The translations under genes and the position numbers were made by a program. DNA of 64,000 nt, from positions 3,799,501 through 3,863,500 of the forward strand of contig NZ_CP014796.1 in the NCBI RefSeq assembly GCF_001969385.1, in the 5' to 3' direction. Shown here piece after piece: positions 590-27,453 of this stretch (the first letter of the stretch is position 1; each line of letters opens with the position of its first letter). This DNA is from Salipiger profundus (GTDB lineage: Bacteria > Pseudomonadota > Alphaproteobacteria > Rhodobacterales > Rhodobacteraceae). The notes beneath the pieces are model-generated. The model saw nothing but the letters and a program-made list of their open reading frames with translations. It was not told where the DNA came from and searched no databases.

Positions 590-596
590 CATAGGC
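590..596 (+). promoter_or_regulatory. CATAGGC element, site 1
   Basis: CATAGGC lies 113 bp before the CoA-transferase start at 709 and about 73 bp before the divergent transporter start at 517. Its flanks (CGGCACGGT before, CAAGG after) closely match site 6 at 21457. It belongs to the set of similar elements found in the promoter regions of this catabolic island. The operator role is inferred. Confidence 0.45.
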
Positions 597-708
597 CCAA
601 GGTGGCGCAGCCGAAGGGAAAAGCTCGGCGGTCCGCGAAGGGCGTCGTCCGCCACCCGGCCGGGATGATAACAAGTCCGCAGCACGAGACACAGGGAGCG
701 AGACCATC

Positions 709-1932
709 ATGCAAGGCATTCTCGAGGGCATCCGGGTTCTTGATTTCGGGCGGTGGATCGCCGGACCGTATTGCGCCCACCTGCTGGCCAGCTTCGGTGC
801 CGACGTGGTGCGCATCGAGCGGCCACGCGGCGAGGACGACCGATTTCTCATGCCGGTCACCGAGCACGGCGAGGGCGCGCAGTTCCTCCAGTGCAACGGC
901 GGCAAGCGCTGCCTCGCGCTGCACATGACCTCGCCCGAGGGGCGCGAGGCGATCCGCAAGATGATCGCCCAGGCCGACGTGGTCGTGGCGAACTACTCGC
1001 CGAGCGCGCTGAAGTATTTCGGCCTCGACTACGAGACGCTCAGGGAGATCAAGCCCGACATCATCCTTGCCAGCGCCAGCGCCTACGGCACCAGGGGGCC
1101 GATGGCCGAACGGATCGGCTTCGACGGGGTCGGCCAGGCGGTGAGCGGCGCTGTCTGGCTCACCGGCGAGGAAGGCAAGCCGCATCGCGCGGCCACGGCG
1201 CCCATCGATTTCGCCACCTCGCTGTCGCTGGCCTACGGAACACTCGCCGCGATCATCCGCAAGATGCGCACCGGCGAAGGCACCAATGTCGAGGCATCGC
1301 TGGTAGGCACATCGCTGAACCTCACCAACCAGATCCTGATGGAAGAGGCGACCGGCTTCCGCCATCGCACCCCCATCGGCAACCGCAGCCCCATGTCGGG
1401 GCCCTCTGACATCTTCAAGGCGCGCGACGGCTGGTTCATCATGCAGGTGATCGGGCAGAAGGTCTTCCAGCGCTGGTGCAAGATCGTCGAACGCGAAGAC
1501 CTGCTGGACGATCCGCGCTTCGCGACGGATGACAAGCGTGGCGCGAATGGCGAGGAACTCAGCGCAATCATGCAGAAGTGGTGCGCCGACAAGACGCGCG
1601 ACGAATGCATCGACATCCTCGGCAACGCGAGCATCGGCTGCGGCCCGGTCCTGTCGCCGGCCGAGGTCACGGGCGGAGCGCTCGACCTGCGCGAGACCTT
1701 CATGCGCGACGTGGCGTTCCCGGGCTCAGCGCCCTTCCCGCTGGTGCCGCCGCCGGCGCAGCTGTCGGCCGGGAGCGTCGCCTTCGACCGTCCGCCACTT
1801 CTGGGCGAGCACAGCGCCGAGGTCCTCTCGGACTACGGGTTCTCGGAGGCGGAGATTGCCGCCATGTGCGAAGCCGGCACCGTAAAGCTCGGCGATGCTG
1901 AAATTCCCGCCCCGCGCGCAGAAGCCGGCTGA
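709..1932 (+). CDS. Family III CoA-transferase (CaiB/BaiF)
   Basis: This 407-residue protein has the usual length of a family III CoA-transferase, which moves CoA between carboxylic acids through an aspartyl-CoA thioester. The N-terminal LDFGRWIAGPYCAHLL segment and the Asp in APIDFATS (about D167) match the family nucleotide-binding region and catalytic Asp. The start follows an AGGGAGCGA ribosome binding site. It stands alone on the plus strand and ends at a strong terminator, so it is probably a single-gene transcript. Its role is activation or recycling of an acid in the island's pathway; the CoA donor and acceptor are unknown. Confidence 0.9.
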   Translation: MQGILEGIRVLDFGRWIAGPYCAHLLASFGADVVRIERPRGEDDRFLMPVTEHGEGAQFLQCNGGKRCLALHMTSPEGREAIRKMIAQADVVVANYSPSALKYFGLDYETLREIKPDIILASASAYGTRGPMAERIGFDGVGQAVSGAVWLTGEEGKPHRAATAPIDFATSLSLAYGTLAAIIRKMRTGEGTNVEASLVGTSLNLTNQILMEEATGFRHRTPIGNRSPMSGPSDIFKARDGWFIMQVIGQKVFQRWCKIVEREDLLDDPRFATDDKRGANGEELSAIMQKWCADKTRDECIDILGNASIGCGPVLSPAEVTGGALDLRETFMRDVAFPGSAPFPLVPPPAQLSAGSVAFDRPPLLGEHSAEVLSDYGFSEAEIAAMCEAGTVKLGDAEIPAPRAEAG

Positions 1933-1992
1933 CTGCACGCGCTTCAAGACACATTCGCGGTGCGGCCCCCTGCCCCGCGAGACGCAATGACG

Positions 1993-2022
1993 AAGGCGCG
2001 GTCCGGGAGACCGCGCCTTTTT
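1993..2022 (+). terminator. Rho-independent terminator of the CoA-transferase
   Basis: A perfect 11-bp stem (1993-2003 with 2009-2019), a 5-nt loop CGGGA and a run of T at 2018-2022. It lies 60 bp after the CoA-transferase stop. Confidence 0.9.
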
Positions 2023-2137
2023 GCATGAGATGAGCCCAAATTCCAGCGAGCGCCGTTCAGTCACGGCGGAGCCGCGGTCGCGGTATCGACCCGCTCCGCC
2101 GGGGGCTACACGCGTCATGCGCCGCCGACGGTCGAAC

Positions 2138-2170
2138 GGAAAAGGCCCCGCGATCACCCGCGGGGCCTTT
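2138..2170 (-). terminator. Terminator of the minus-strand beta-oxidation operon
   Basis: A perfect 12-bp stem (2141-2152 with 2159-2170) around loop ATCACC. On the minus strand it is followed by TTTT, and it sits just after the crotonase stop at 2191. It closes the operon that starts at 8291. Confidence 0.85.
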
Positions 2171-2190
2171 CTCGTTTGATGTGGCGCGGG

Positions 2191-2994
2191 TCAGCGCTTG
2201 CGAGAGAAGTCCGGACGGCGCTTTTCGCGGTGGCTCGCGACGCCCTCGCGCACGTCGGGACCGCCGAAGCCCAAGAATTCCAGCGCAAGACCGGCCTCGA
2301 AGGTGCCCGCGTTCTGTTTCCAGAACAGGTTGAGCGTGCGCTTGGTCCACTGGATGGATTCCTGCGCGCCGCGGTTCAGCTTGCTTGCCGTCTTGCGGGC
2401 GGTCTCGAGCAGGTCCGCCTCTTCGACGGTCAGCGACACGAGGCCGATGCGCTCGGCTTCCTCGCCGGAGATCTTGTCGCAGGTCAAAAGCAGGTACTTC
2501 GCCTTGGCCATCCCGCAAAGCAGCGGCCAGACCGCCGCCGCGTGGTCGCCCGCCGCCACGCCGAGGCGGGTATGGCCATCGACGATCACCGCATCCTTGG
2601 CGGCGATCGAGATGTCGGCCATCAGCGCGACCACAAGCCCCGCGCCCACGGCAGGCCCGTGGATCGCCGAGATGATCGGCTTCGAGCAGTCGATCATGTT
2701 GTAGTAGAGATCGCGCGATTCCTTCAGCACCTGCGTAAGCGTGCCGTAGTCCTCGATCTGCGCGTCGATCAGCGCGAAATCTCCGCCAGCCGAAAAGGCC
2801 TTGCCCGCGCCGCGCACGATCACGACGTTCACGTCGGGGTCTTCGTCGATGACATTCCAGACGTAGGGAATGTCGGAGTGGACCCGCGCATCGACCGCGT
2901 TGAGATTGGGGCCGTCGAAGATGACTTCGAGCACGCCCGGCTCGTTCATCTCGAACTTGAACGCGAAGTCGTTGTATCTGTCGAGGTTGCTCAT
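2191..2994 (-). CDS. Enoyl-CoA hydratase/isomerase (crotonase) family protein with atypical active site
   Basis: A 267-residue crotonase-fold protein, last gene of the minus-strand operon and 11 bp after the thiolase. The oxyanion segment around AFSAGGDFAL and the AIHGPAVGAG turn are typical. The two catalytic Glu of classical enoyl-CoA hydratase are not seen: the usual GQPE position reads DGHT and the second reads GDHAA. This matches a recognised crotonase subgroup with His/Asp there, so simple hydration of an enoyl-CoA is not assured; isomerase, hydrolase or C-C cleavage are possible. Start chosen at MSNLDRY; a longer reading overlaps the thiolase. Confidence 0.85.
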   Translation of the reverse strand: MSNLDRYNDFAFKFEMNEPGVLEVIFDGPNLNAVDARVHSDIPYVWNVIDEDPDVNVVIVRGAGKAFSAGGDFALIDAQIEDYGTLTQVLKESRDLYYNMIDCSKPIISAIHGPAVGAGLVVALMADISIAAKDAVIVDGHTRLGVAAGDHAAAVWPLLCGMAKAKYLLLTCDKISGEEAERIGLVSLTVEEADLLETARKTASKLNRGAQESIQWTKRTLNLFWKQNAGTFEAGLALEFLGFGGPDVREGVASHREKRRPDFSRKR

Positions 2995-3005
2995 TTCCGT
3001 ATTCC

Positions 3006-4217
3006 TTAGCTGACGCGTTCGAAGATCGCGGCGAGGCCCTGGCCCCCGCCGATGCACATGGTCTCGAGACCGTAGCGGGCCTCGCGGCGCTCCATCTCGC
3101 GGAGCATGGTCGCAAGGATGCGCACGCCTGTCGCCCCGACCGGATGGCCGAGCGAGATGCCCGAACCGTTGACGTTGAGACGGGCGTAGTCGTCCTCGCC
3201 GAAGCCCCAGCTCTTGGTGCAGGCAAGCACCTGCGCCGCGAAGGCTTCGTTGAGCTCGACGAGGTCCATGTCCTTCATGGCGAGCCCTGCGCGGGAAAAT
3301 GCCTTTTCCACTGCCGGCACCGGGCCGATGCCCATGCGCTCGGGTCCGACACCAGCGACGCCCCAGTTCACGAGCCGGCCAAGCGGCTTCAGCCCCAGGG
3401 CCTCGGCCTTTTCACGGGTGGTGACGATGCAGGCCGCCGCCGCGTCGTTCTGCCCCGAGGCGTTGCCCGCGGTGACCGTGGACTCGGGGTCCGACTTGCC
3501 GAGGATGGCGCGCAGCTGCGACAGGCTCTCGGGCGTCGCGTCGTGGCGGATGTGCTCGTCGGTATCGAAGACGGTCTCGCCCTTGCGGCTCTTGATCGTC
3601 ACCGGCACGGTCTCGTCGGCGAACTTGCCCGCCGCCGTGGCGGCCGACGCCTTGGCGTGGGAGTTGGCGGCGAAGGCATCCTGCTCCTCGCGCGAGATCG
3701 AGAAGTCGCGGCGCAGGTTCTCGGCGGTTTCCAGCATGCCGCCGGCCACCGGGTAGAACTTGCCGCCCGAGGTGACACGGCCGCGCCCGATCCGGCACAT
3801 CAGCGATGCGTCACGGCCCTTGAGGCCCCAGCGCGCGCCCATGGTGTAATATTCCGCCTGGCTCATGGATTCAGCGCCGCCCGCGACGATGAGATCCGCG
3901 ACGCCCGTCTGCACGCACATCGAGGCGTTGATGACCGCCTGCAGGCCCGAGCCGCAGCGCCGGTCGATCTGGGTGCCGGGCACCGAGATGTCGAGCCCCG
4001 CGTCGAGCGCCGCGATGCGCCCGATGGCCGGAGCCTCGGAGTTGGGGTAGACTTGACCGAAGATCACGTCGTCGATGTCCTCGCTTTTCACCCCGGTGCG
4101 GGCGACGAGCGCCTTCATGACGGTGGCGGCAAGATCGGCGACGGGGACGTCGCGCAGGGAGCCGCCATAGCCCCCGACCGGGGTGCGGATCGGCTCGCAG
4201 ATGACTGCTTCGCGCAT
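3006..4217 (-). CDS. Acetyl-CoA C-acyltransferase (thiolase)
   Basis: A 403-residue thiolase. The nucleophilic Cys is C88 in RRCGSGLQ, the His is in GISLGHPVGATG, and the second Cys is in MCIGGGQG near the C-terminus. It performs the thiolytic last step of beta-oxidation, releasing acetyl- or propionyl-CoA. It lies between the acyl-CoA dehydrogenase (31 bp upstream) and the crotonase (11 bp downstream), so all three are probably co-transcribed. The start at 4217 (MREAVIC) fits the family N-terminus. Confidence 0.93.
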   Translation of the reverse strand: MREAVICEPIRTPVGGYGGSLRDVPVADLAATVMKALVARTGVKSEDIDDVIFGQVYPNSEAPAIGRIAALDAGLDISVPGTQIDRRCGSGLQAVINASMCVQTGVADLIVAGGAESMSQAEYYTMGARWGLKGRDASLMCRIGRGRVTSGGKFYPVAGGMLETAENLRRDFSISREEQDAFAANSHAKASAATAAGKFADETVPVTIKSRKGETVFDTDEHIRHDATPESLSQLRAILGKSDPESTVTAGNASGQNDAAAACIVTTREKAEALGLKPLGRLVNWGVAGVGPERMGIGPVPAVEKAFSRAGLAMKDMDLVELNEAFAAQVLACTKSWGFGEDDYARLNVNGSGISLGHPVGATGVRILATMLREMERREARYGLETMCIGGGQGLAAIFERVS

Positions 4218-4248
4218 GTTGTGTTCCTTCCTGTGTCCCGGAGTGGCG

Positions 4249-5409: not shown

Positions 5410-5423
5410 TTTGGGGTCTCCTC

Positions 5424-7394: not shown

Positions 7395-7397
7395 GGC

Positions 7398-8291
7398 TTA
7401 TCCCCTGTCCTTGAGCTGCTCGTACATGCCGATCACCTCGCGGGCGGTCTTCACGTGGGCGAGGTCGATGTGCATGCCCTCGTAGGCGACCGCGGCATCG
7501 CCCCGGGCGACACCGGCGTCGAAGGCGTCGATCATGCCCTGGTAGAATGCGACCTCCTGCTCGGTCGGCATGAAGACCTCGTTGGCGATGGCGACATGGC
7601 TGGGGTGGATCGCCACCAGCCCGCGGAAACCGAGCTTCTTGTTGTCACGGGCGAATTTCCACGCACCCTCGATGTCCTGAAGATCCTGCCACAGCCCGAC
7701 GATCGGGAAATCCCGGCCCGCCGCGCGCACCGCCAGCACCGCCCGCGACCGCATGTAGAGCGTCTCGAGCCCGTCCGGCGTGAACTCGAAGCCGATGGAG
7801 CGCGAGACGTCGGCGTCCCGGGCCGTGCCCGCGAACAGCGTCGCGCAACGCGGCGATGCCTTGATCATGTTCTCGCAGTCGGCATAAGCCTGCGCGGTCT
7901 CGAGCGAGAGCACGAATTCCAGCGTGCCCGCCTCGACGCCGTTGCGACGCTCGTAGTGGTCCACCAGCGCCTCGGCCTGGACGACGTCGCGCGCCCCGTA
8001 GGTCTTGGGCGGCAGGAAACCGTTGCAGCCCTTGATCGCCACGGCCTCGAGATCGTCGCCCATCATGCCGGTCTCGAGCGCGTTGAGCCGCACGTAGACC
8101 CCGACCTCGGGGTTGGACTTCGCGAGCTCGCCGATGGTTTCGGCGACCATGTGACGGGTTTCGGACTTCATGTCCTCGGGCACGGAATCCTCGAGATCAA
8201 GGATCACCGCATCCGCGCCGGCCGCCACGGCCTTCTTGGCCCATGCCTGCTTGTGGCCGGGAACGAACAGCATCGAACGTGTGGGTTTCAT
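7398..8291 (-). CDS. HpcH/HpaI-CitE family CoA-ester lyase
   Basis: A 297-residue TIM-barrel protein of the citrate lyase beta/malyl-CoA lyase family. It begins with RSMLFVPGHKQ and carries the metal-site segment AVILDLEDSVPEDMK; the LSLETAQAYAD and LFAGTARD segments follow in family order. Such enzymes cleave or form C-C bonds of 3-hydroxyacyl-CoA esters (malyl-, methylmalyl- or citramalyl-CoA). It is the first gene of the minus-strand operon that runs to 2191. The upstream region is AT-rich, with a palindrome at 8325 and a CATAGG element at 8395. Confidence 0.88.
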   Translation of the reverse strand: MKPTRSMLFVPGHKQAWAKKAVAAGADAVILDLEDSVPEDMKSETRHMVAETIGELAKSNPEVGVYVRLNALETGMMGDDLEAVAIKGCNGFLPPKTYGARDVVQAEALVDHYERRNGVEAGTLEFVLSLETAQAYADCENMIKASPRCATLFAGTARDADVSRSIGFEFTPDGLETLYMRSRAVLAVRAAGRDFPIVGLWQDLQDIEGAWKFARDNKKLGFRGLVAIHPSHVAIANEVFMPTEQEVAFYQGMIDAFDAGVARGDAAVAYEGMHIDLAHVKTAREVIGMYEQLKDRG

Positions 8292-8324
8292 ACCGGAAAA
8301 GCCTCCTCTTTCCCCTTTGAATGC

Positions 8325-8336
8325 ATAATATATTAT
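8325..8336. promoter_or_regulatory. AT-rich palindrome between divergent genes
   Basis: ATAATATATTAT is a perfect 12-bp palindrome in otherwise GC-rich DNA, 34 bp before the CitE-like gene start. On the minus strand TTGACC (8350-8345) lies just before it, so it overlaps the likely promoter of the beta-oxidation operon and could be a repressor operator. GntR-family proteins often use AT-rich palindromes like this, and the window encodes two such regulators. No regulator can be assigned from sequence. Confidence 0.5.
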
Positions 8337-8394: not shown

Positions 8395-8400
8395 CATAGG
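8395..8400 (+). promoter_or_regulatory. CATAGG element, site 2
   Basis: CATAGG lies 148 bp before the SDR start at 8548 and 104 bp before the divergent CitE-like gene. The next base is T rather than C, so this is a weaker member of the set. Confidence 0.35.
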
Positions 8401-8547
8401 TGCGCAAGACCAGGGCCTTGGAAACCCCGCCGAAAGGGCGCAGGGGTTGGGGCCTGTGGCCGCACAAGGCGGCGGCTTCGGGCGCGGCGATTGACAAGGC
8501 GTGCGTCCGGCGGAAGCTCGGGAAACGAGGGTGAGGGAGACAGGACC

Positions 8548-9348
8548 GTGAAGCGTTTCAGTGACAAGACAGCACTTGTGATCGGCGCGGGAACAGCCGG
8601 CGGCGGCTGGGGCAACGGCAAGGCGATCGCGGCGCAATTCGCCCGCGAGGGCGCGAAGGTCGTCTGTTTCGACCTTGATGCCACCCTCGCCGAGGAGGCC
8701 GCGCAGACCATCCGAGACGAGGGCTTCGACGCCGTCGGGATCGGCGGAAACGCCACGTCCTCGGAGGACGTTAAGGCCGCCGTCGACAGGGCGGTGAGCG
8801 AATACGGCGGTCTCGACCTGCTGGCCAACAACGTCGGCATCGTTGTCCCGGGCGACGTGGTCTCGCTGTCGGAAGAGGATTTCGACAAGGTCTTTGCCGT
8901 GAACCTCAAGAGCTGCTTCCTGTCGATGAAGCACGCCATCCCCGAGATGCTGAAGCGCGGCGGCGGCGCCATCGTCAACGTCTCGTCGATCTCGAGCATC
9001 CGCTATCTCGGCAAGAACTACGTCGGCTACTATTCCTCGAAGGCGGCGATGAACCACATGACCCGGGTGACGGCGGCCGAATACGCGGCGCGGCAGGTCC
9101 GGGTGAACGCGGTGCTGCCGGGCCTCATGGACACCCCGATGGCGCGGGCCTCGGCGCAACGGAACTGGGGCGCGACGCCCGAGAAGATGGAAGAGCTCTG
9201 GAAGGAACGCGCCGAGCGCGTGCCGATGCAGTGGCTCGGCGACGCCTGGGACATCGCGAGGGCCGCTGCCTTCCTCGCGAGCGACGAGGCCCGTTTCATC
9301 ACCGGGCAGACGCTGACCGTCGACGGCGGCATGACGCTGGGCTGCTGA
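8548..9348 (+). CDS. Short-chain dehydrogenase/reductase (SDR)
   Basis: A 266-residue SDR oxidoreductase. The nucleotide-binding motif is unusually long, GAGTAGGGWGNG, where most SDRs have TGxxxGIG. The NNVG segment, the Ser in VSSISS and the YSSK catalytic pair are present, as is the C-terminal TVDGG. It probably interconverts a hydroxyl and a keto group of a pathway intermediate. The GTG start at 8548 follows GAGGGAGACAGG; earlier in-frame codons have no family similarity. The MFS gene starts 3 bp after its stop. Confidence 0.88.
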   Translation: MKRFSDKTALVIGAGTAGGGWGNGKAIAAQFAREGAKVVCFDLDATLAEEAAQTIRDEGFDAVGIGGNATSSEDVKAAVDRAVSEYGGLDLLANNVGIVVPGDVVSLSEEDFDKVFAVNLKSCFLSMKHAIPEMLKRGGGAIVNVSSISSIRYLGKNYVGYYSSKAAMNHMTRVTAAEYAARQVRVNAVLPGLMDTPMARASAQRNWGATPEKMEELWKERAERVPMQWLGDAWDIARAAAFLASDEARFITGQTLTVDGGMTLGC

Positions 9349-9350
9349 CG

Positions 9351-12229: not shown

Positions 12230-12247
12230 ACTGACCCGGCGCTCAGT
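12230..12247. promoter_or_regulatory. ACTGA-N8-TCAGT box
   Basis: Arms ACTGA and TCAGT are separated by 8 bp, 79-96 bp before the aldehyde dehydrogenase start. A very similar box lies at 27436, before the second thiolase. The form resembles TetR-type operators with CTGA/TCAG arms. In both places the CATAG element lies farther from the gene than this box. The role is inferred. Confidence 0.45.
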
Positions 12248-12267: not shown

Positions 12268-12284
12268 CATAGGCCGCACCTATC
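12268..12284 (+). promoter_or_regulatory. ATAGG-N5-CCTAT inverted repeat (CATAGGC site 3)
   Basis: ATAGG (12269-12273) and CCTAT (12279-12283) form an inverted repeat with a 5-bp gap, preceded by C to give CATAGGC. It is about 118 bp before each of the divergent genes at 12151 and 12394. The same geometry recurs at 18116. It is the best-formed site of the set together with site 5. Confidence 0.55.
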
Positions 12285-12393
12285 CGGGCGACAGGGCGCC
12301 CGACGCCCGCGATGACTGCAATCCCGGTGCAGAGTTGCCTATCGTGGAGCCAAGGCGCGAGAGCGCAGCACAACGGGAAAAGAGGAACACGCA

Positions 12394-13867: not shown

Positions 13868-13891
13868 CGGGGCCGTCAGGCCCCGTTTTTT
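13868..13891 (+). terminator. Rho-independent terminator
   Basis: Stem CGGGGCC (13868-13874) with GGCCCCG (13879-13885), loop GTCA, followed by six T. It ends the SDR-NTF2 operon. The stop codon of the convergent GntR gene lies in the loop. Confidence 0.9.
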
Positions 13892-14607
13892 CGATCCTCG
13901 CTCCAGAGCCCCTGCTCTTCGAGATGCTGCACCAGTGCATCGCCTCCGCTGACGATATGCTCGACCATCTGTGTGCGCGCCCTCTCGGGATCGCGGTCGC
14001 GGATCGCGTCGAGAATGCGCGGGTGATAGTCCATCGAGCCTTCGATCTGGCCCTCGATGCGACCATAGAACTCGTTCGGCAGCTGCTTGGTCATGTTGCC
14101 CAGCAGGTTTGCCAAGCGGTTCGAGCGCGCCGCGAGGTTCACCGCCCGGTGAAACCTGTGGCCAAGGCGTGTGTAGAGCGGCTCGTCGCCCGCTGCGACC
14201 GCTGCGCGGTGGTCGACGATGAGCTGCTCGAGCTCGGCGATTTCCTCGTCGCTCGCGCGTTCGGCGGCGCGGGCGGCCAGCTCTCCGGCCAGCGTGCCCT
14301 GCGCCCAGAAGATGTCGAGCACGTCCTGCGCCTCGACCCCCACCACGCGGAAGCCGCGGCGCGGCACCAGCTTCACGAAGCCTTCGAGCTGCAGCAGAAG
14401 CAGCCCCTCGCGCACTGGCGTCGAGCTGACATCCATCGCCCTCGCGATGCTGTCGATGCGCAGGTAGTCGCCCTCGCGCGCCTGTCCCGAGATGATGAGT
14501 TCCCGGACGTAGCTTGCCACGTCCTGGGACAGCTGGTTGCGGCGCCCCTGTGCGCCCCGGGGTAGCTCCATCGCGCCTGTCTTCCGGATGATACTGTTGT
14601 CGCCCAT
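13876..14607 (-). CDS. GntR-family regulator with FCD domain
   Basis: A 243-residue DNA-binding regulator. Residues about 17-80 form the winged helix, with SIARAMDVSSTPVREGLLLL as recognition region. The rest is all-helical with GHRFHRAVN and HPRILDAI segments typical of the metal/ligand-binding FCD domain. FCD regulators usually respond to a small organic acid or CoA-pathway intermediate. It is convergent with the SDR-NTF2 operon and upstream of the SDR gene at 14663 on the opposite coding order. It is a candidate controller of part of the island. The start at 14607 (MGDNSII) was chosen because codons upstream overlap the neighbouring SDR. Confidence 0.9.
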   Translation of the reverse strand: MGDNSIIRKTGAMELPRGAQGRRNQLSQDVASYVRELIISGQAREGDYLRIDSIARAMDVSSTPVREGLLLLQLEGFVKLVPRRGFRVVGVEAQDVLDIFWAQGTLAGELAARAAERASDEEIAELEQLIVDHRAAVAAGDEPLYTRLGHRFHRAVNLAARSNRLANLLGNMTKQLPNEFYGRIEGQIEGSMDYHPRILDAIRDRDPERARTQMVEHIVSGGDALVQHLEEQGLWSEDRKNGA

Positions 14608-16695: not shown

Positions 16696-16824
16696 GTCTT
16701 TCTCCGTCTGGTCTGTGGCGCCCCTGGCGCGATGATCGGCGGTTCTGCGCGGGGGCCGTTCGGCGCCACCGCGGTGTTCAAGCGAACCTACCCGCTCGAC
16801 AGCGGCGGTTCCACGCGGGCAAGG

Positions 16825-16830
16825 CCTATG
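16825..16830 (-). promoter_or_regulatory. CATAGGC element, site 4
   Basis: On the minus strand CATAGG reads 16830 to 16825 and continues with CCTTGCCCGC. It is 130 bp before the CoA-transferase start at 16695, and it points towards that gene as the other sites do towards theirs. It is also about 40 bp past the stop of the third CoA-transferase gene. Confidence 0.4.
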
Positions 16831-16869
16831 GAGGCCAGCGATTGCTCCTGTCTCTGGAGACCATCGGGG

Positions 16870-18042
16870 TTACCTCTCGCTGGCGTGATCCGTGGCGTCA
16901 CCCTGCCGAAGCCATCCCTCCGCAAGCCCCTGTTCGATACGGACCGGCGCGATGCCCCAGGCCGCAAGCCCCTCGCGGGTGTCGGCTCCGTCCTGCGCCG
17001 GGGCAAGGCGCAGCGCGCCGGGCGTGCGTGAGAAGCGGGGCGCGGGCGCCGGGTGCTCGACCCCGGCAAAGCGCTGCGTCATCGCGCGGGCGGTCGCCTG
17101 AGGATGGGTCGCGGCCTCAGAGAGTGACAGCACCGGCGTCACGCAGGCATCGCTGCCATCGAAGATCCGCTCCCATTCGGCGCGAGTGCGTTCGCGGAAG
17201 CGGGCCGCGAAGATGCCGCGCAGCACTTCGCGCGCGCCGGGCGCCGAGCGGTCCGGAAGTGCCTCCGCCTTCAGCTCCAGGCGTTCGATGAAGCTGGCAT
17301 AGAACCGCGCCTCGAGCGCACCGACGGCCATCCATTCGCCGTCCGCCGTTTCATAGACCGCGTACCATGGCGCGCTGCCGTCCAGGTCGTTACCGCCGCG
17401 TCGGCCGGAAATGCGCCCCTCGGCCAGGAAGCCACGAAACACGGTGAGCAGGCTGCCGACCCCGTCGATCATCGCCGCGTCGACCACCTGCCCCCGGCTG
17501 CTGTGCCGCGCCTCGAGCAACGCGCAGACCACGCCGAAGGCCAGATAGAGCGCGCCGCCGCCGTAGTCTCCCACGAGGTTCAGCGGCGGCACCGGCGGCC
17601 CGCTTTCGGCCCCGATCATCCCCAGCGCGCCCGCGAGCGCGATGTAGTTGATGTCATGTCCCGCCGCCTGCGCCAGCGGCCCGTCCTGCCCCCAGCCGGT
17701 GGCCCGGCCGTAGACCAGCGCCCGGTTCGCGGCGAGGCACGGCTCGGGCCCCAGCCCGAGACGCTCCATGACGCCGGGCCGATAGCCCTCGATCAGCACG
17801 TCGGCGGACCGGACGAGATCGAGCAGCGTTTCGCGACCTTCGGCGCTCTTGAGGTCCAGCTGCACCGACCGCTTGTTACGCCCGCGCAGGTCCGCCGCCG
17901 CACCGCCGATGCCGCGCTCGGGGGCGACGGGCCGGTCGATGCGCAGCACGTCCGCGCCCATGTCCCCGAGAAGCATGCCGCAGAACGGGACCGGCCCCAT
18001 GCCTGCCATTTCCAGCACGCGCACCCCGCTCAGCGTTCCCAT
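16870..18042 (-). CDS. Alpha-methylacyl-CoA racemase-like protein (CaiB/BaiF family)
   Basis: A 390-residue family III protein that carries the racemase triad: H129 in AGHDINY, D159 in LVGDYGGG and a Glu in VYETADG (E231). These match His126, Asp156 and Glu241 of the mycobacterial enzyme. Alpha-methylacyl-CoA racemase inverts the 2-methyl centre of a branched acyl-CoA so that it can enter beta-oxidation, which hints at an isoprenoid or sterol side-chain-like substrate. The start at 18042 follows GAGGAGG. It is divergent from etfB with the inverted-repeat CATAGG site between. Confidence 0.88.
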
Positions 18043-18114: not shown

Positions 18115-18131
18115 CATAGGGCGTGCCTATG
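18115..18131. promoter_or_regulatory. ATAGG-N5-CCTAT inverted repeat (CATAGG site 5)
   Basis: CATAGG (18115-18120) and CCTATG (18126-18131) form a perfect 6-bp inverted repeat with a 5-bp gap. It is 104 bp before etfB and 73 bp before the divergent racemase-like gene. It has the same spacing as site 3 at 12269. Confidence 0.55.
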
Positions 18132-18234
18132 GGGCGCACAGAGCGGGTCCGGGTCGCAACCCGCGCGGATCTGTGCTTTGACTGCCTGCCAAGCCCGAAC
18201 CGAGGGCGCAACGGAACAGACTGGAGAACCGCCG

Positions 18235-18993
18235 ATGAAGGTGCTTGTACCTGTCAAACGCGTGATCGACTACAACGTGAAGGTCCGCGTGAAAGCGGAT
18301 GGCAGCGGTGTCGATCTGGCCAACGTGAAGATGTCGATGAACCCGTTCGACGAGATCGCGGTCGAGGAAGCCATCCGGCTGAAGGAAGCCGGCAAGGCCG
18401 ACGAGGTCGTGGTGGTCTCGATCGGTGTGAAGCAGGCGCAGGAGACGCTGCGCACCGGGCTTGCGATGGGCGCCGACCGCGCGATCCTCGTGACCGCGGC
18501 CGACGACGTGCACACCGACATCGAGCCGCTGGCGGTGGCCAAGATCCTCGCCAAGGTGGTCGAGGAAGAACAGCCCGGCCTCGTGCTGATGGGCAAGCAG
18601 GCCATCGACAACGACATGAACGCGACCGGCCAGATGCTGGCGGGCCTTCTGGGCTGGGCGCAGGCGACCTACGCCAACACGCTCGAGGTCGAGGACGGCG
18701 CCGCGGTGGTGGCACGCGAGGTCGACGGCGGCCTGCAGACCATCAAGGTGACCCTGCCGGCGATCGTGACCACCGACCTGCGCCTCAACGAGCCGCGCTA
18801 CGCGTCGCTGCCCAACATCATGAAGGCGAAGAAGAAGCCGCTCGACGAGAAGACCGCCGAGGACTACGGCGTCGACGTCTCGCCGCGTCTCGAGGTCGTG
18901 AAGACCGCCGAGCCGGCCGAGCGGGCCGCGGGCATCATGGTTGGCTCGGTCGACGAGCTGGTGACGAAACTCAAGGAAAAGGGGGCTCTGTGA
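18235..18993 (+). CDS. etfB: Electron transfer flavoprotein beta subunit
   Basis: A 252-residue EtfB, which with EtfA carries electrons from acyl-CoA dehydrogenases to ETF:quinone oxidoreductase. It binds AMP and holds the recognition loop, seen in the highly conserved [13 protein letters not shown] and KAKKKP segments; VDGGLQTI precedes it. The start [10 protein letters not shown] matches the family; in-frame codons upstream would read through the divergent promoter region. The etfA start overlaps its stop by one base (TGATG). Confidence 0.97.
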
Positions 18994-19919
18994 TGGCTGT
19001 TCTCCTTGTTGCGGAAATCAATGACGGCACGCTGGCGATGGACGCCACCGCGAAGGCCGTCGCGGCCTCGCAGCCGCTGGGCGACGTGACCGTTCTGGCG
19101 GTGGGCGCGACGGCGAAGGACGCCGCCGCCGAGGCCGCCACCATCGAGGGCGTGGCCAAGGTGCTGGTGGCCGAGGACGCGACCTACGGTCACCGTCTCG
19201 CGGAACCCACGGCGGCGCTGATCGTGTCGCTCGCTGGCGATTACAGCCACATCGTGGCGCCGGCGACGACGGATGCGAAGAACATCCTGCCGCGCGTCGC
19301 GGCGCTGCTGGATTCGATGATCCTGACCGATGTCACCTCCGTGGTGGATGCGGATACCTTCGAGCGCCCGGTCTATGCCGGCAACGCCATGCAGACGGTA
19401 AGGTCGAAGGATGAAAAGAAGGTTATCACCTTCCGGACCTCCACCTTCGATGCTGCCGGCACCGGCAACTCGGCTCCGGTCGAGGACGTGGCCAGCGCCG
19501 ACAACCCCGCGCTGTCGGAATGGGTCGAGGACAAGATGGCCGAGAGCGACCGCCCCGAGCTGACCTCGGCGAAGATCGTCGTCTCGGGCGGCCGCGGCGT
19601 CGGCTCGGAAGAGGACTTCGTGATCATCGAGAAGCTCGCCGACAAGCTCGGCGCGGCGGTTGGCGCCTCGCGCGCGGCGGTGGATTCGGGCTTTGCGCCG
19701 AACGACTGGCAGGTCGGCCAGACCGGCAAGGTCGTGGCGCCGGATCTCTACATCGCCTGCGGCATCTCGGGGGCGATCCAGCACCTCGCGGGGATGAAGG
19801 ATTCGAAGATCATCGTGGCGATCAACAAGGACGAGGAAGCGCCGATCTTCCAGGTCGCCGACTTCGGCCTCGTCGCCGACATCTTCGAGGCCGTGCCGGA
19901 GATGACCGACAAGGTGTGA
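18993..19919 (+). CDS. etfA: Electron transfer flavoprotein alpha subunit
   Basis: A 308-residue EtfA that binds FAD. The C-terminal FAD segment is clear: [17 protein letters not shown] followed by [10 protein letters not shown] and [10 protein letters not shown]. It is translationally coupled to etfB and followed by a palindromic repeat and a strong terminator. In this island it serves the acyl-CoA dehydrogenase at 4249, but EtfBA is usually shared by all such enzymes in the cell, so it may be the general copy. Confidence 0.97.
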
Positions 19920-19929
19920 TCCGCAGGCT

Positions 19930-19943: not shown

Positions 19944-19960
19944 GCCCTACCCCACGACAC

Positions 19961-19991: not shown

Positions 19992-20071
19992 GCTTGGTCG
20001 GAATGGCGCGAGGTTCCGCTGCCCCGGGCCGGGAAGAACCGGGGCGGCTGGCGCCCCGGTGCGGATGCGCG

Positions 20072-21331: not shown

Positions 21332-21456
21332 GGCTATCCTCCTCTCGGGGTCGCGCATCGCGCGACGGCTTCCTGTCTTGCTGGCGACTCCTCCGTCGCC
21401 GCGGCAGGGAAAGGCTAGTCCAGCCCGGACGGCCGCGAAACGCTGCCCGGCACGGC

Positions 21457-21463
21457 CATAGGC
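21457..21463 (+). promoter_or_regulatory. CATAGGC element, site 6
   Basis: CATAGGC followed by AAAGGCTGG, 103 bp before the gene at 21566 and 126 bp before the divergent P450. Its surroundings match site 1: both have CGGCACGG before and AAGG after. Confidence 0.45.
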
Positions 21464-21565
21464 AAAGGCTGGTCGAGCCATATCCTGAGCCGGCTCACAG
21501 GCGTCTGTCGCGGCGCCCGCCCCGATGCGAGGATGCCGGCAGACAAAATGACAAGGAGCCGCGGC

Positions 21566-21880: not shown

Positions 21881-22009
21881 TCCGCGCCCGTCGGCCCAGC
21901 CATGAGCCAAGTGCAATGCCGCATTGCAGCATCATGGCTGGTCCGAGCCCCGATGGTTTCCTATCTTCAGTGCAACACGGAACATAATGCACGATTCAGG
22001 AGACCAGAT

Positions 22010-22132
22010 ATGGAAACCCGCACCACCTCGAAAATCATTGCCGACGCCCAGCTCGACCGCGCCCAGATGATCCGCGCGTTCTTTGCGAAGATCTTCAGCT
22101 TCGGCTCGCACGGTCACCCCGTCCACCACTGA
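22010..22132 (+). CDS. 40-residue miniprotein, RSP_7527-like
   Basis: A small gene starting METRTTSK and ending HGHPVHH, behind an AGGAGACCAGAT ribosome binding site and followed by its own terminator. The central DRAQMIRAFFAKIF is an amphipathic helix. Length and helix resemble the RSP_7527/DUF1127-like small proteins common in Rhodobacterales, some of which act in RNA or phosphate regulation in other alphaproteobacteria. The family placement is tentative, but a clean ribosome binding site and terminator support a real gene. Confidence 0.6.
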   Translation: METRTTSKIIADAQLDRAQMIRAFFAKIFSFGSHGHPVHH

Positions 22133-22171
22133 GACCGGCCGCGGGGGCACACCTCCGCCCGGACATGAAAG

Positions 22172-22207
22172 CGCCCCATCGGATCTTCCGACGGGGCGTT
22201 TCTTTTT
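22172..22207. terminator. Terminator between miniprotein and MmgE/PrpD gene
   Basis: CGCCCC and TCGGA (22172-22183) pair with TCCGA and GGGGCG (22187-22198) with one mismatch; loop TCT; T-rich tail to 22207. It serves the plus-strand miniprotein gene and lies just beyond the convergent MmgE/PrpD stop. Confidence 0.85.
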
Positions 22208-22215
22208 TTCAACCG

Positions 22216-23619
22216 TCAGGCGCCCGGCAGAACCAGCGCCATCACCTCCGAGGCCGGGCGGTCCGGCTTCATCTCGTCCACCAGGGCCCAGAGCCGCATC
22301 GCCTGCTCCTTGCCGATGAAGGCCGTGGTCAGGTCGTCGAGCTTCTTCATGTGTTCCTCGGGAGTGAAGGGCTTCTTGGGCGAGCCCTTGGACTGTTCCT
22401 CGAAGATGTGCCGGCTGCTGCCATCCTTGAAGTGAACCGTCACGTCTGCGACGAAATAGGGGTATTTCTTGTCGAGGTCCGGTCCGATCTCGATCTTCAC
22501 CCGGTCGATCATCCGGCGCACCTCTGAGCCCTCGCCGAGGTCGATCTCCCCATCGAGAATGGCCTTGTGCGCCGTGAAGCCGTTGCCCATGCCAAGCACC
22601 GAAAGCGCCATCTGCGCGGGTAGCGAATACTGCACCTCCTCGATGTTGCGGGGGGTGTAGATGTTGACGTTGCGGGTGCCGACGATGCTGTTGACCATGG
22701 TCTGCACGCGGGCGTCGATGCGCTCGATATCGTCGGCGCGGTCCTGCACGTGTGCCATCGCCTCGATATACGAGAAGGTGCAGGCGCAGCAGCAGTAGGC
22801 CTTGTAGCTCAGGCCCGGCATGAAGTTCGGCGTCTCGGGCAGGAAATCGGCGATGGCCTCCTCGCCTACGGTCTTGTCGCAGAACATCCGGTAAAGGCCT
22901 CGGTTTCCGGTGAGGAAGTTGCGCGGGCCGGTGATCCCGGCGCGGGCAAGCTCGGCGGACTCGATACCGTTTCGCACGCAGATCCCCGCATGGGCACGCT
23001 TGATCGACCCGCCGGACGAGGCGTATTCCGTCGGCCCGCTGGCGTGGCTCAGCGCGATGGCCAGCGCGTGGAAGGTCTGCTCCTCGTCGAGGCCGTAGAT
23101 CTTCGAGGCCAGCGCCGCGATGCCGAAGCCGCCCCAGATCGCATGCGGCTGCCAGCCCTCGTTCAGGACCGCCGGCGAGCCCCACTTGCCGATCCGGACG
23201 TAGGTCTCGTAGCCGACGACCAGTGCGGTCATCACGGTCTCGAGGTCGGCGCCGGCCTCCTCGGCCATCGCGAATGCTGCGGGCACCACGGCACAACCCG
23301 GATGGGCGTTGCCGAAGAAGTCGTCGTATTCGAAACCGTGACCGTACGTGGCGTTCAGGTAGGCGGCATCCACCGCCGCCGCCTTCATGCCCGGATCGCC
23401 GACGATGGTCGCCTTGCCCGGACGGGGGTTGCGGAAGTCGCGGGTCTTCTTCGACCACGGCAGTTGCGACGCCCCGATCTGGATCGCGAACTGGTCCTTG
23501 GTCAGCATCTTCAGCGCGTCCATCGTCGCCGGATCGATGTCCTCGAAGCTGAAATTCACCACGAATCTCGCCACCGCCTGCTCAAGGGTAAGCGTTTCGA
23601 TACGCGTCTCTCCGTCCAT
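22216..23619 (-). CDS. MmgE/PrpD family protein
   Basis: A 467-residue member of the MmgE/PrpD family, which includes 2-methylcitrate dehydratase, cis-aconitate decarboxylase and iminodisuccinate epimerase. The helical N-terminal domain and the HAIWGGFGIAALA, YEDs-like and PRNIEEVQYSLPAQMA segments fit. It faces a second, divergent MmgE/PrpD gene at 23804 that is only moderately similar. A 2-methylcitrate-like dehydration or a decarboxylation of a branched di/tricarboxylate is possible; the substrate is unknown. Confidence 0.88.
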   Translation of the reverse strand: MDGETRIETLTLEQAVARFVVNFSFEDIDPATMDALKMLTKDQFAIQIGASQLPWSKKTRDFRNPRPGKATIVGDPGMKAAAVDAAYLNATYGHGFEYDDFFGNAHPGCAVVPAAFAMAEEAGADLETVMTALVVGYETYVRIGKWGSPAVLNEGWQPHAIWGGFGIAALASKIYGLDEEQTFHALAIALSHASGPTEYASSGGSIKRAHAGICVRNGIESAELARAGITGPRNFLTGNRGLYRMFCDKTVGEEAIADFLPETPNFMPGLSYKAYCCCACTFSYIEAMAHVQDRADDIERIDARVQTMVNSIVGTRNVNIYTPRNIEEVQYSLPAQMALSVLGMGNGFTAHKAILDGEIDLGEGSEVRRMIDRVKIEIGPDLDKKYPYFVADVTVHFKDGSSRHIFEEQSKGSPKKPFTPEEHMKKLDDLTTAFIGKEQAMRLWALVDEMKPDRPASEVMALVLPGA

Positions 23620-23728
23620 TGCCGATCCTCCCGGGTTCCTGGGCGCGGGCACCCTGCCAGCACGCCCGCGCATATTCCACGATCCGTCCGCCGGTTGCGA
23701 CTGGCGTGCAGTCCTTTCCGAAGGCGGG

Positions 23729-23735
23729 CATAGGC
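23729..23735 (+). promoter_or_regulatory. CATAGGC element, site 7
   Basis: CATAGGC followed by GAAGGCTTC, midway between the two divergent MmgE/PrpD genes, 75 bp before one start and 110 bp before the other. Confidence 0.45.
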
Positions 23736-23803
23736 GAAGGCTTCATGCCCCCTGCCCCGTCTGGCATGGTATACACGGCGCCAAACCCGAGGAGGACACT
23801 GAC

Positions 23804-25240
23804 ATGAGCACCATCGTCGAACAGCTTGCCGAATTCACGGCCGGCAGCCGCTACGAGGATCTTCCCCCGGAGGTCGCCAACGAGACCAAGCGGGTCGTGC
23901 TGGACTCGATCGGCTGCGCCCTTGCCGCGACCGACGAGCAGAAGGGCACCATCGGCCTCGAGATCGGTGCCCGGATGGGCAGCGGCGACGAAGCGACCAT
24001 CCTGGGCACCGGCGGGCGCGGCTCTGTCTACGGCGCGGCCTTCGCCAATGGCGAGCTCATCAACGCGCTCGATTTCGACGCCATCCTGCCGCCGGGCCAC
24101 GTGTCGCCCTACGTGATCCCCGGCGCGCTCGCCATGGCCGAGAAGGCCGGCACCAGCGGCGCCGATTTCGTTGCCTCGATGGCGGTCGCGCACGAGATGT
24201 CGAACCGCATCGGCAAGGCGATGGACTACCTCCGCGACATCAAGGACGACGCGATGAACACGCCGCAGGTCTATGGCTATGCCTCGACCATCTTCGGCGG
24301 CACCGCGGCGATCATGCGGGTCCAGGGGCTCGAGGCGTCGCGTATCGCCCACGGGCTCGGCGTCGCGGGCTGCATCTCGCCGATCAACTCGCACATGGCC
24401 TGGGTGCGTCATGCGCCGCCCACCACGATCAAGTATACCGTGGCCGGGGTGATGGCACAGGCTGCGCTGACCGCCGCCGCCATGGGAGAGCTCGGCCACC
24501 GCGGCGACATCCAGGTGCTCGACGATGCGGTCTACGGCTTCCCCGGCATGATCGGCACGAAGCGCTGGGAGCCCGAGGTCATCACCGCCGGGCTGGGCGA
24601 GACATGGCGCTACATCCACGAGAACAGCTACAAGCCCTACCCGCACTGCCGCGTGCTGCACAGCGTCTTCGATGTCATGCTCGACGTTCTGGAACAGCAC
24701 GACATCAAGCCCGAGGAGATCGAGCACATCTCGGTCTTCGGCGAAGCTTTCGTGCGGCTGCCGATCTGGGAGAACAACACCGTCGAGTTCCCCACCGACG
24801 GCCAGTTCAGCATCGCCCATGGCATCGCACTTGCCGCGCAGCGGGTGCGCCCGGGCCGGGCGTGGCAGGATCCGGACCTCGTGTTCGATCCCAAGGTGCT
24901 TGCCATGATGGACAAGGTTACGCATGAGCCGCACCCCGACTACATTCCGTTCCTGAAGGAAAACGGTGCCTCGCGCCCCGCAAAGGTCGAGATCTCGGCG
25001 CGCGGCCAGGTTTTCACCGGCGAGACCCGCTATCCCAAGGGCAGCCCGTCTCCCGACCCGTCGAGCTACTACAGCACCGAGGAGCTGGTCGCGAAGTTCC
25101 GCCACAACGCAGACGGCGTGCTGTCGGCGGCGGCCACCGACGACGTGGTGGACATGTTCCTCAACCTCGAGCGCGCGCCGGACATGGGCAAGGTCATGGC
25201 GCTCTTCGCCAAGGATTCAAAGGTGCGCATGGCTTCCTGA
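23804..25240 (+). CDS. MmgE/PrpD family protein
   Basis: A 478-residue MmgE/PrpD protein, paralogue of the gene at 22216. The N-terminal FTAGSRYEDLPPEV helix, LDSIGCALA, LDFDAILPPGHVSP and KPYPHCRVLHS (substrate-site Lys/His) are recognisable. The start follows GAGGAGGACACTGAC. It ends at a strong terminator. The divergent pairing suggests the two proteins act on related intermediates or together. Confidence 0.9.
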   Translation: MSTIVEQLAEFTAGSRYEDLPPEVANETKRVVLDSIGCALAATDEQKGTIGLEIGARMGSGDEATILGTGGRGSVYGAAFANGELINALDFDAILPPGHVSPYVIPGALAMAEKAGTSGADFVASMAVAHEMSNRIGKAMDYLRDIKDDAMNTPQVYGYASTIFGGTAAIMRVQGLEASRIAHGLGVAGCISPINSHMAWVRHAPPTTIKYTVAGVMAQAALTAAAMGELGHRGDIQVLDDAVYGFPGMIGTKRWEPEVITAGLGETWRYIHENSYKPYPHCRVLHSVFDVMLDVLEQHDIKPEEIEHISVFGEAFVRLPIWENNTVEFPTDGQFSIAHGIALAAQRVRPGRAWQDPDLVFDPKVLAMMDKVTHEPHPDYIPFLKENGASRPAKVEISARGQVFTGETRYPKGSPSPDPSSYYSTEELVAKFRHNADGVLSAAATDDVVDMFLNLERAPDMGKVMALFAKDSKVRMAS

Positions 25241-25267
25241 AGCCATGCCACACCGACGACCAACGAA

Positions 25268-25293
25268 GAAAGGCGCCCTGCGGGGCGCCTTTC
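25268..25293. terminator. Terminator between convergent genes
   Basis: A perfect 11-bp stem, GAAAGGCGCCC (25268-25278) with GGGCGCCTTTC (25283-25293), loop TGCG. It lies between the MmgE/PrpD stop and the 3-hydroxyacyl-CoA dehydrogenase stop. Confidence 0.85.
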
Positions 25294-25320
25294 CTGCTTT
25301 CCGGGTGAAGCGACGGGCCC

Positions 25321-26412
25321 TCAGGCAAAGACCCTTGCCAGTCCAGCCTCCGGAAACGGCGTGTCGAACCGCGCGCAATACGCTTCCACTTCCTTGCGAA
25401 CGCTGTCGGCGCCCTTGGCCCGCATGAGGGCGACCGGCGGCTGGCCGAACCGCAGCGCGAGGCTTGCGCCGGTGTCTATGGCATCGGGCGAGGCGACGTC
25501 CTCGGCCAGTTCCTCGAGCACCGGCAACCAGGTGGCCGCCCGCAGCCGCGCGCCGATCGTGGCGGCCACCGGCTCGGGCAGCGCCTCCGGCGTCTCCTCG
25601 ATCTGCCACGACTCGCCAGCCTCTCCGGTGGCGACGAGCCCCTCTGCCGGTGCGTAACTCGGCCCCAGAGCGCTGAGGTTGCGCACCGCGTTGAGGTTGA
25701 TGCGCGGCTTGATGATGTTCATCACCGCGAAGGGCCCGATGGCAAGGTCGAAGACCTGCCGGGCCACGAGGTCGATCTGCCCGGTGGTCGCAAGCCCCTC
25801 GTCGGCGATCCTGCAGGCCTCGTTGGTATAAGGACAGAAGAAGCGGTTCACGGCGAACCCGTTGGCGTCGCGGCAGGTCAGCGCCGTCTTGCCCATCGCC
25901 CCGACATACTCCTGCGCCAGCGCGAGGGCCTCGTCCGAGGTTGCCTCACCACGCACCACCTCGACCAGCGGGTTGATGTCGGCGGGGCTGAAGAAATGCA
26001 GCCCGAGGAAGCGCTGTGGATGCGGCAGGCAGCCCGCGAGATCGCTGACCCGCAGGGCGCTGGTGTTGGTGGCCACGACCGAGCCCGCGCCCACATGCGG
26101 TGCAAGCCGGGTGAGCAGGTCGGTCTTGACCGAAAGATCCTCGAAGACCGCCTCGATCACGAGCTCCGCTGACGAAACCGCCGCGAGGTCGGTCGACACC
26201 GTCAGCGCCGCGCGGCGGTTTTGCGCCTCTTCCGAAGTCGCGCGCCCCTTCTCGACCGCGCGGGCAAATGCCTTGTCGATGCGCGCCCCGGCGGCCTCGA
26301 GGGCAGCGCCTGTGGTGTCGATCAAAACAACATGCGCTCCGCCCGTCAGCGCGGCGATGGCGATGCCGCCGCCCATGGTGCCTGCTCCGATGATGGCCAC
26401 GGTCCGTGTCAT
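25321..26412 (-). CDS. 3-hydroxyacyl-CoA dehydrogenase
   Basis: A 363-residue NAD-dependent dehydrogenase of the HBDH/FadB type. The N-terminal VAIIGAGTMGGGIA is the NAD fold; GLHFFSPADINPLVEVV holds the catalytic His; NGFAVNRFFCPY begins the dimer domain. It is longer than the usual 280-320 residues by a C-terminal tail (about residues 290-363). It oxidises a 3-hydroxyacyl-CoA to the 3-keto form for the thiolase. It is divergent from the GntR/UTRA regulator at 26640. Confidence 0.9.
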   Translation of the reverse strand: MTRTVAIIGAGTMGGGIAIAALTGGAHVVLIDTTGAALEAAGARIDKAFARAVEKGRATSEEAQNRRAALTVSTDLAAVSSAELVIEAVFEDLSVKTDLLTRLAPHVGAGSVVATNTSALRVSDLAGCLPHPQRFLGLHFFSPADINPLVEVVRGEATSDEALALAQEYVGAMGKTALTCRDANGFAVNRFFCPYTNEACRIADEGLATTGQIDLVARQVFDLAIGPFAVMNIIKPRINLNAVRNLSALGPSYAPAEGLVATGEAGESWQIEETPEALPEPVAATIGARLRAATWLPVLEELAEDVASPDAIDTGASLALRFGQPPVALMRAKGADSVRKEVEAYCARFDTPFPEAGLARVFA

Positions 26413-26639
26413 CACGTCTCCCTTCCTGTTGCGGTCGCGCACTCACACGCGCGTGTCGCGCAAAGTATGATGCGAATACCGTCTAGAGGACATCCCCGGC
26501 ATCCTTTCGACCGGGCTACGGCTATGACCCTGATAGGGAAGTTCTGTTGCGACCAAGACCAAAGTTGGGTCTAGGAGGCGGATGCAGTTCAATGCTACGA
26601 CTTTTCCATTGTGCAGCCGCAGGCGGACCGGAATTCGGC

Positions 26640-27383
26640 ATGACGACGCATAACCTGAAACAGGGCTCGGTCACGCTTTACGCCCAGCTCGCCACCATCC
26701 TCAGGGACCGGGTCTACACCGGCACCTGGCCCGCGGGCTCGCCGATCCCCACGCTCGACGAGCTGACCCGGGAGTTCGAGGTCGCACGCGTCACCGCAAG
26801 ACAGGCGGTTCAGCTCCTTTGCCAGGAGGGCCTGCTGTCGAGCCAGCGCGGCAAGCGCACCCAGGTCATCTGGGAGCCGCCCGACATCTCGCACCGGCCG
26901 ATCTTCTCCTCGACCGGCTCGCTGGACGAGTCGCCGGCCACGTACTCGGTCGACGTGCTCGACTACGAGGAATTCGATCATCTCCCCCTGCGCCGACTGG
27001 CCGAGGGCACCGATGCCGGGCCCTACGTCCGCATCCGCAAACGCGATCTCTACAAGGGCATGCCCTATGCCTGCTCCGAGAACTACGTGAGACTGGATCT
27101 CTACCGCAGGTTTCCCCCGGGCGGCGAGACGGTGTCGAAGATCATCCGCCTCGTGCGCGACGCGGCGCGGCCCCGCCAGACGACCGGATCCGAGCTGATC
27201 CGGGTCTCGATGCCGACCGAGACCGAGGCGATGCAGCTGCAATGTGCCCTCGGCGCGCCCGTCGCCCGGATCAGCCGCGTGCTTCTCGACGAGGACGGGT
27301 CCGTCCTTCTGCATGGCGAATACACCTATTGCGCCCGCGACTTCGCCCTGACCCGCGACATCACCTCGCTGCTGCACGACTGA
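26640..27383 (+). CDS. GntR-family regulator with UTRA domain (HutC type)
   Basis: A 247-residue regulator. Residues about 8-75 form the winged helix, with IPTLDELTREFEVARVTARQ as DNA-recognition part; residues about 95-240 form the UTRA ligand domain with YVRIRKRDLYKG and the closing GEYTYCARDFAL. UTRA proteins are usually repressors released by a pathway metabolite. It is divergent from the 3-hydroxyacyl-CoA dehydrogenase and precedes the second thiolase, so it is a candidate regulator of these genes. Confidence 0.9.
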   Translation: MTTHNLKQGSVTLYAQLATILRDRVYTGTWPAGSPIPTLDELTREFEVARVTARQAVQLLCQEGLLSSQRGKRTQVIWEPPDISHRPIFSSTGSLDESPATYSVDVLDYEEFDHLPLRRLAEGTDAGPYVRIRKRDLYKGMPYACSENYVRLDLYRRFPPGGETVSKIIRLVRDAARPRQTTGSELIRVSMPTETEAMQLQCALGAPVARISRVLLDEDGSVLLHGEYTYCARDFALTRDITSLLHD

Positions 27384-27407
27384 CCCAGAGGCGCAGCCTT
27401 CTTCCCT

Positions 27408-27413
27408 CATAGC
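27408..27413 (+). promoter_or_regulatory. CATAGc element, degenerate site 8
   Basis: CATAGC, one base off the CATAGG core, preceded by CCCT and 98 bp before the thiolase start at 27511. It is included because its place and its order relative to the ACTGA box repeat the arrangement at 12230-12283. Weak on its own. Confidence 0.25.
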
Positions 27414-27435
27414 CTGTCCCGCCGCCACCCCTTGC

Positions 27436-27453
27436 ACTGACGCGCCGTTCAGC
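27436..27453. promoter_or_regulatory. ACTGA-N8-TCAG box
   Basis: Arms ACTGA and TCAG with an 8-bp gap CGCGCCGT, 58-75 bp before the thiolase start. It is the counterpart of the box at 12230 before the aldehyde dehydrogenase, and the next bases (CGGAA and TGGAA) are also similar. Confidence 0.45.

Follow-up and report, generated by a model that had tools for sequence, protein, structure and literature searches.

Does a single regulator control the catabolic gene island found on the Salipiger profundus chromosome, and if so, which protein is it? The island occupies part of a 64,000-nucleotide stretch of DNA (the window, in whose numbering coordinates are given here unless marked otherwise, negative values denoting bases upstream of it), and the question arises from a short word, CATAGG, that recurs in front of its genes. 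The initial annotation listed eight places, all of which are present in the sequence: CATAGG at 590, 8395, 12268, 16825 (minus strand), 18115, 21457 and 23729, and CATAGC at 27408. The two perfect ATAGG-N5-CCTAT inverted repeats that it described are likewise there, at 12269-12283 and 18116-18130. With genes called by a simple codon-usage caller of our own and functions assigned from HMM scans, the distance from each of the seven CATAGG sites to a gene start is 73-153 bp, in agreement with the 70-150 bp first estimated, and six of the seven fall between divergent gene pairs, the exception being 16825, which lies between two minus-strand genes.

In window positions 1-28700 there are eight intergenic copies of CATAGG (at seven places, one of them palindromic) in 2,860 bp, where the background density of the genome itself predicts approximately 1.05, a figure that matches the earlier guess of roughly one chance hit. 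The hexamer had also been said to occur inside genes, and seven genic copies are found in the same interval. Background was sampled as 36 segments of 20 kb from the S. profundus genome (720 kb in all) and 20 segments of 20 kb from Salipiger bermudensis HTCC2601, giving 62,448 bp and 38,034 bp of upstream DNA, respectively, for comparison with 4,984 bp from the gene block described below. CATAGG is present in 15 of 23 block upstream regions in S. profundus versus 20 of 294 in the background (Fisher test, 5e-11) and in 17 of 23 versus 10 of 172 in S. bermudensis (5e-13). The predicted intergenic enrichment is thus borne out in the 720-kb sample, and in both genomes it amounts to 10- to 14-fold over background.

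Conservation was analysed in depth in two genomes, those of S. profundus and S. bermudensis, the syntenic block in the latter being located via a cytochrome P450 gene (84% identity). A P450 search of the genome collection returned two loci, and the P450 was abandoned as an anchor for a wider set of relatives: of 198 family genomes, 10 gave a match, one of them S. profundus itself, and the other matches all had 35% identity or less. An unbiased count took in every upstream region of the block with an orthologous counterpart, 23 in total, drawn from 71 reciprocal-best genes with regions shorter than 60 bp dropped. Here CATAGG is the top over-conserved 6-mer, being found in both genomes in 14 regions where 0.2 would be expected (20 mononucleotide shuffles), and CATAGGC is the top conserved 7-mer (11 of 23 regions); both words outrank those of the Shine-Dalgarno type. 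The shorter CATAG is seen in both genomes in 16 of the 23 regions when position is ignored (the copies in region 27384 do not align); in six, in addition to region 16696-16869, it is found in neither genome or in one only. In 14 island regions, examined by hand and selected for holding the motif, CATAG stands at the aligned place in S. bermudensis in 12, the exceptions being 16825 and 27408. The expectation that relatives would conserve the sites is therefore upheld, S. bermudensis keeping them in promoter DNA that has otherwise diverged. The recurrence of CATAGG in block upstream DNA is not due to chance.

Closer inspection reveals a fuller element, comprising ATAG-N7-CTAT and a third half-site at a distance of one more helical turn, such that half-sites are found every 11 bp (+11, +22). 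Six perfect ATAG/CTAT pairs at 11-bp spacing are present in 124 kb of S. profundus sequence, every one of them intergenic: three face inward (-5975, 12269 and 18116) and three outward (-29917, -8608 and 26522). A seventh is located in the promoter of a LysR gene discussed below. All seven lie in the upstream DNA of the block, 4,984 bp in which 0.02 pairs would be expected, and all seven have counterparts in S. bermudensis, which has an extra perfect pair at 348532. Background upstream DNA yields one such pair in S. profundus and none in the S. bermudensis sample; this lone background array (L108:17675; G000:C1:3017675) has a GerE match about 0.5 kb away. Six promoters carry one clear half-site each. 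For CTAT, single-copy sites (eight per genome) weakly favour offset +11 in S. profundus and S. bermudensis alike; for ATAG they favour +22, which in S. bermudensis ties with -43. The consensus of single and inward sites reads CATAGGC-N5-CTnn-N7-nnAGG, its first five bases being fixed by site selection. The T-N11-A inverted repeat of LysR-type sites is present in the seven perfect pairs and weakly so in the single-copy class, whilst the outer half-sites expected of an OxyR-like array are mostly missing at the outward block sites. The spacing of the element is thus of the T-N11-A/OxyR-like kind seen with LysR-type regulators.

Across the whole S. profundus genome, exact CCTATG-N5-CATAGG occurs twice, both times within the block, and exact ATAGG-N5-CCTAT three times, twice in the island and once at the 3' end of a LysR gene. 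This last copy, a perfect ATAGGAATATCCTAT at L001:1501-1515 (G000:C1:1960244-1960258), precedes formate dehydrogenase-like genes; we take the LysR gene to be FdsR-like and its neighbours to be fds genes, and the palindrome is likely to be a site for the adjoining LysR regulator.

Within the window, the sites at 590..616 and 8395..8421 (both plus strand) each offer a single clear CATAGG half-site. The first lies between genes for an EamA transporter (minus) and a CaiB CoA-transferase (plus, 709-1932) and has an S. bermudensis counterpart at 396514; the second, also conserved, lies between a CitE-like lyase (minus, 7398-8291) and an SDR (plus, 8548-9348). Inward arrays of the form ATAG-N7-CTAT-N7-ACAG are found on the plus strand at 12268..12294, between aldehyde dehydrogenase (minus) and SDR (plus) genes, and at 18115..18141, between a CaiB CoA-transferase (minus, 16870-18042) and ETF beta/alpha (plus, 18235-19919). 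The former is almost identical in S. bermudensis and the latter is kept with an altered spacer. At 21457..21483 (plus), CATAGG is followed by degenerate half-sites at +11 and +22, between the P450 gene (minus, start ~21331) and one for a CMD-family protein (plus, start at 21533 or 21566), and at 23729..23755 (plus) it separates a minus-strand MmgE/PrpD gene (22216-23619) from a plus-strand one (23804-25240) that is missing from the corresponding place in S. bermudensis. A conserved site at 26522..26547, which the initial annotation overlooked, comprises an outward pair, CTAT-N7-ATAG, with CTGT at +22, and lies between genes for a 3-hydroxyacyl-CoA dehydrogenase (minus) and a GntR-UTRA protein (plus). 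Two of the eight places originally put forward lack an aligned counterpart in S. bermudensis. These are CATAGG at 16825..16830 (minus), upstream of CaiB-SDR-GntR genes, and the degenerate CATAGC at 27408..27413 (plus), upstream of a thiolase gene; probably neither is a site of the regulon, and both were rejected as conserved members. Beside the former, the GCGATTGCTCCTGTCTCTGGA stretch upstream of CaiB2 (16830-16875) is identical in S. bermudensis although the adjacent CATAGG is lost.

Further conserved sites are found upstream of the window. The block itself extends from approximately -68.5 kb, the edge of the DNA fetched, to +28.7 kb, a span of at least 97 kb that is syntenic with S. bermudensis apart from insertions and some rearrangement. 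The part in the window encodes enzymes of acyl-CoA metabolism (CaiB CoA-transferases, enoyl-CoA hydratase, thiolases, acyl-CoA dehydrogenase, acyl-CoA ligase and 3-hydroxyacyl-CoA dehydrogenase) together with a CitE-like lyase, SDRs, aldehyde dehydrogenase, ETF, the P450, two MmgE/PrpD proteins and two regulators, GntR-FCD (13876-14607) and GntR-UTRA (26640-27383). The P450 has weak matches only among solved structures, the best being CYP101J2 (E 1.2e-6). Upstream of the window the block encodes TRAP transporters, a MaoC hydratase, molybdopterin and [2Fe-2S] dehydrogenase subunits, more CaiB, HMGL-like and acyl-CoA dehydrogenase proteins, and a TetR protein (~-41683 to -41045).

Which protein reads the sites? 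The S. profundus genome has 53 LysR_substrate matches (52 above the cut-off), one of which lies within the mapped block. Its gene (G000:C1:3734061-3735110) is at the far end of the block, about 65 kb before the window, and encodes a 349 amino acid protein with an N-terminal HTH_1 domain (PF00126, E 2.1e-20) and a C-terminal LysR_substrate domain (PF03466, E 1.1e-31) that is 90.6% identical to its S. bermudensis orthologue (block median 88%). The gene's own promoter contains ATAG-N7-CTAT 57 bp before the start, kept in S. bermudensis. The side facing the divergent DctP gene carries CATAGGCAAAgCC, its CATAGG-type site again kept, and two copies of CCTAT precede the SDR gene downstream of LysR. 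One of these copies reads CCTATGGC in each genome, whilst the second is CCTATG in one and CCTATC in the other. In the recognition helix, the block protein has a proline aligned with P30 of CatM, the position that, in the account given in PMC12609908, contacts the T of T-N11-A in BenM and CbnR.

More distant relatives give a mixed picture. Elsewhere in the family, a LysR gene abuts 6 of 15 sites matching ATAGG-N5-CCTAT-N8-CAG, versus 0 of 15 for the mirror pattern (P 0.017), adjacency being scored by tblastn with one LysR query and one of the six lying at the 3' end of an FdsR-like gene. That the outward palindromes never adjoin a LysR gene in 15 other genomes counts against a simple reading. 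Two pattern searches across 394 family genomes found no genome besides that of S. profundus with more than one separate site (the two rows for G332 being one palindrome read on both strands). Amongst 12 homologues of the block LysR protein (35-42% identity), three have an inward array in the 40 bp preceding the protein match, exact in two and with one mismatch in the third; the other nine have none, even with one mismatch allowed. In Celeribacter naphthalenivorans, a LysR homologue (40% identity, with alanine in place of the recognition-helix proline) is divergently transcribed from an orthologue of the P450 (61%), and this neighbourhood links the two genes, although the gap between them is without an array. 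The same locus (L019:8820-11263) continues with genes for proteins of 107 and 404 amino acids that are perhaps electron-transfer partners of the P450 orthologue.

Taken together, these results lead us to propose, with a probability of roughly 0.75, that the block is coordinated by its own LysR protein through binding to the CATAGG arrays. On the same sequence evidence, CATAGG itself is probably the strongest half-site of a candidate LysR-type binding array, ATAG-N7-CTAT plus a third half-site. A LysR dimer or tetramer would sit on each array between the mostly divergent operons, sense a pathway metabolite as inducer and activate both sides together, such that the CoA-transferases, beta-oxidation enzymes, P450, ETF, aldehyde dehydrogenase and TRAP transporters would be expressed in concert; it would also control its own gene, with the TetR and the two GntR proteins of the block adding local control. 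The primary site of LysR-type regulators is usually centred near -65 from the transcription start, as described in PMC4834489; this is approximately where the array centre falls in a single predicted promoter (region -30034), whilst the other predicted promoters do not show it.

Other explanations for the repeated word have to be weighed against this one. That it is a product of chance or composition is barely credible: CATAGG is indeed found inside genes too and the whole window is enriched (25 copies against 7.9 expected from shuffles), yet neither fact accounts for intergenic enrichment of the magnitude seen in two genomes, nor for conservation where the surrounding promoter DNA has diverged. 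A less improbable idea, though still an unlikely one, is that the reader is another regulator of the block, GntR-FCD, GntR-UTRA or TetR. The genes for all three lie within the conserved block, the outward site at 26522 is directly upstream of the GntR-UTRA gene, and TetR operators can be palindromes of the length of the CATAGG array. Against this, TetR has a better operator candidate in CTGA-N8-TCAG (see below), GntR operators do not usually take the form of an 11-bp array with a third half-site, and the GntR-FCD promoter region is without a conserved CATAGG whereas the LysR promoter has a conserved site.

It is more doubtful still that the sites are read by a LysR-type regulator encoded elsewhere, whether OxyR or another. 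OxyR sites are tandem ATAG-N7-CTAT (PMC5002191 and PMC8787470), and the exact palindrome outside the block adjoins the FdsR-like gene. Since ATAG-N7-CTAT is, according to PMC5002191, generic to several LysR-type proteins, the site alone cannot name one of the 53 LysR matches. The block, however, retains a LysR gene of its own, accompanied by the same sites, in both S. profundus and S. bermudensis, and at the island sites ATAG is preferentially followed by G and CTAT preceded by C, in contrast to the form ATAGnt given for OxyR in PMC5002191. An OxyR regulon as such is not supported, the sites having at most three half-sites, with G after ATAG, rather than a four-half-site tandem ATAGnt..CTAT array. 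The initial annotation had likened the half-site to GerE/LuxR-type boxes. These do have short palindromic half-sites, and the lone background array lies close to a GerE match, but none of the genome's 10 GerE matches is in the mapped block (the nearest, at 3708320, is about 22 kb beyond the fetched edge), and the T-N11-A spacing with its 11-bp repeat, together with the block's own LysR gene bearing the same sites, makes this identity very improbable. Conservation and enrichment lend good support to the broader suggestion, that of a single regulator for the island in its entirety; its attribution to GerE/LuxR is not supported.

Two further elements occur in block promoters. The palindrome CTGA-N8-TCAG occurs four times in three S. 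profundus promoter regions of the block (12231-12246, 27437-27452, ~-29962 and ~-29847), the copies at -29962 and 12231 having S. bermudensis counterparts, and with its N8 spacing it is absent from the 62,448 bp of S. profundus background upstream DNA. In region -30034, a predicted minus-strand promoter has its spacer overlapped by one copy, the arrangement expected of a repressor operator, and because the TetR gene is the last in the minus-strand run beginning there, our guess is that TetR reads this palindrome as its operator, hinting at a TetR layer of control. Stretches of the TGCATNAT/ATNATGCA type, kept in S. bermudensis, are found in four block upstream regions (8322-8335, 21984-21991, ~-7256 and ~-2614) and might, again as a guess, be the operator of a GntR protein. 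The fullest version of our proposal, in which a single LysR master regulator governs a block of at least 97 kb through some 15 upstream regions, its half-sites read inward or outward in helical phase and the TetR palindrome layered on some promoters, is tentative and less likely than not.

On the proposed LysR reading, an uncharacterised degradation gene block becomes a single regulon open to testing, with a candidate regulator already named, the inducer of which would point to the block's substrate, and the mixed orientation of its half-sites provides a clean test of how flexibly LysR-type oligomers read DNA.

The proposed regulon is of an already known kind. Among the best solved-structure matches of the block LysR protein are TsaR (3fxq, E 8.5e-16) and CatM (2h98, E 2.6e-14), both of low similarity, which we take to be LysR-type catabolic regulators; their operons are smaller than the regulon proposed here. 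Similarity to the OxyR structure 4x6g is also distant (E 4.3e-14). In common with OxyR as described in PMC5002191 and PMC8787470, the element has ATAG half-sites one turn apart on the same face of the helix; it differs in reading ATAGG...CCTAT, usually with one strong and two weaker half-sites, and in its catabolic targets. A comparable system is that of ThnR in tetralin catabolism by Sphingopyxis granuli TFA where, in the account of PMC4834489, one LysR-type activator serves several catabolic operons from close divergent promoters with T-N11-A primary sites. The proposed regulon would share each of these features, a single LysR-type activator, several catabolic operons, divergent promoters and T-N11-A sites, and differs from ThnR in its half-site pairs facing both ways and in its extent, with 14 upstream regions bearing aligned sites here as against the four operons described there (PMC4834489).
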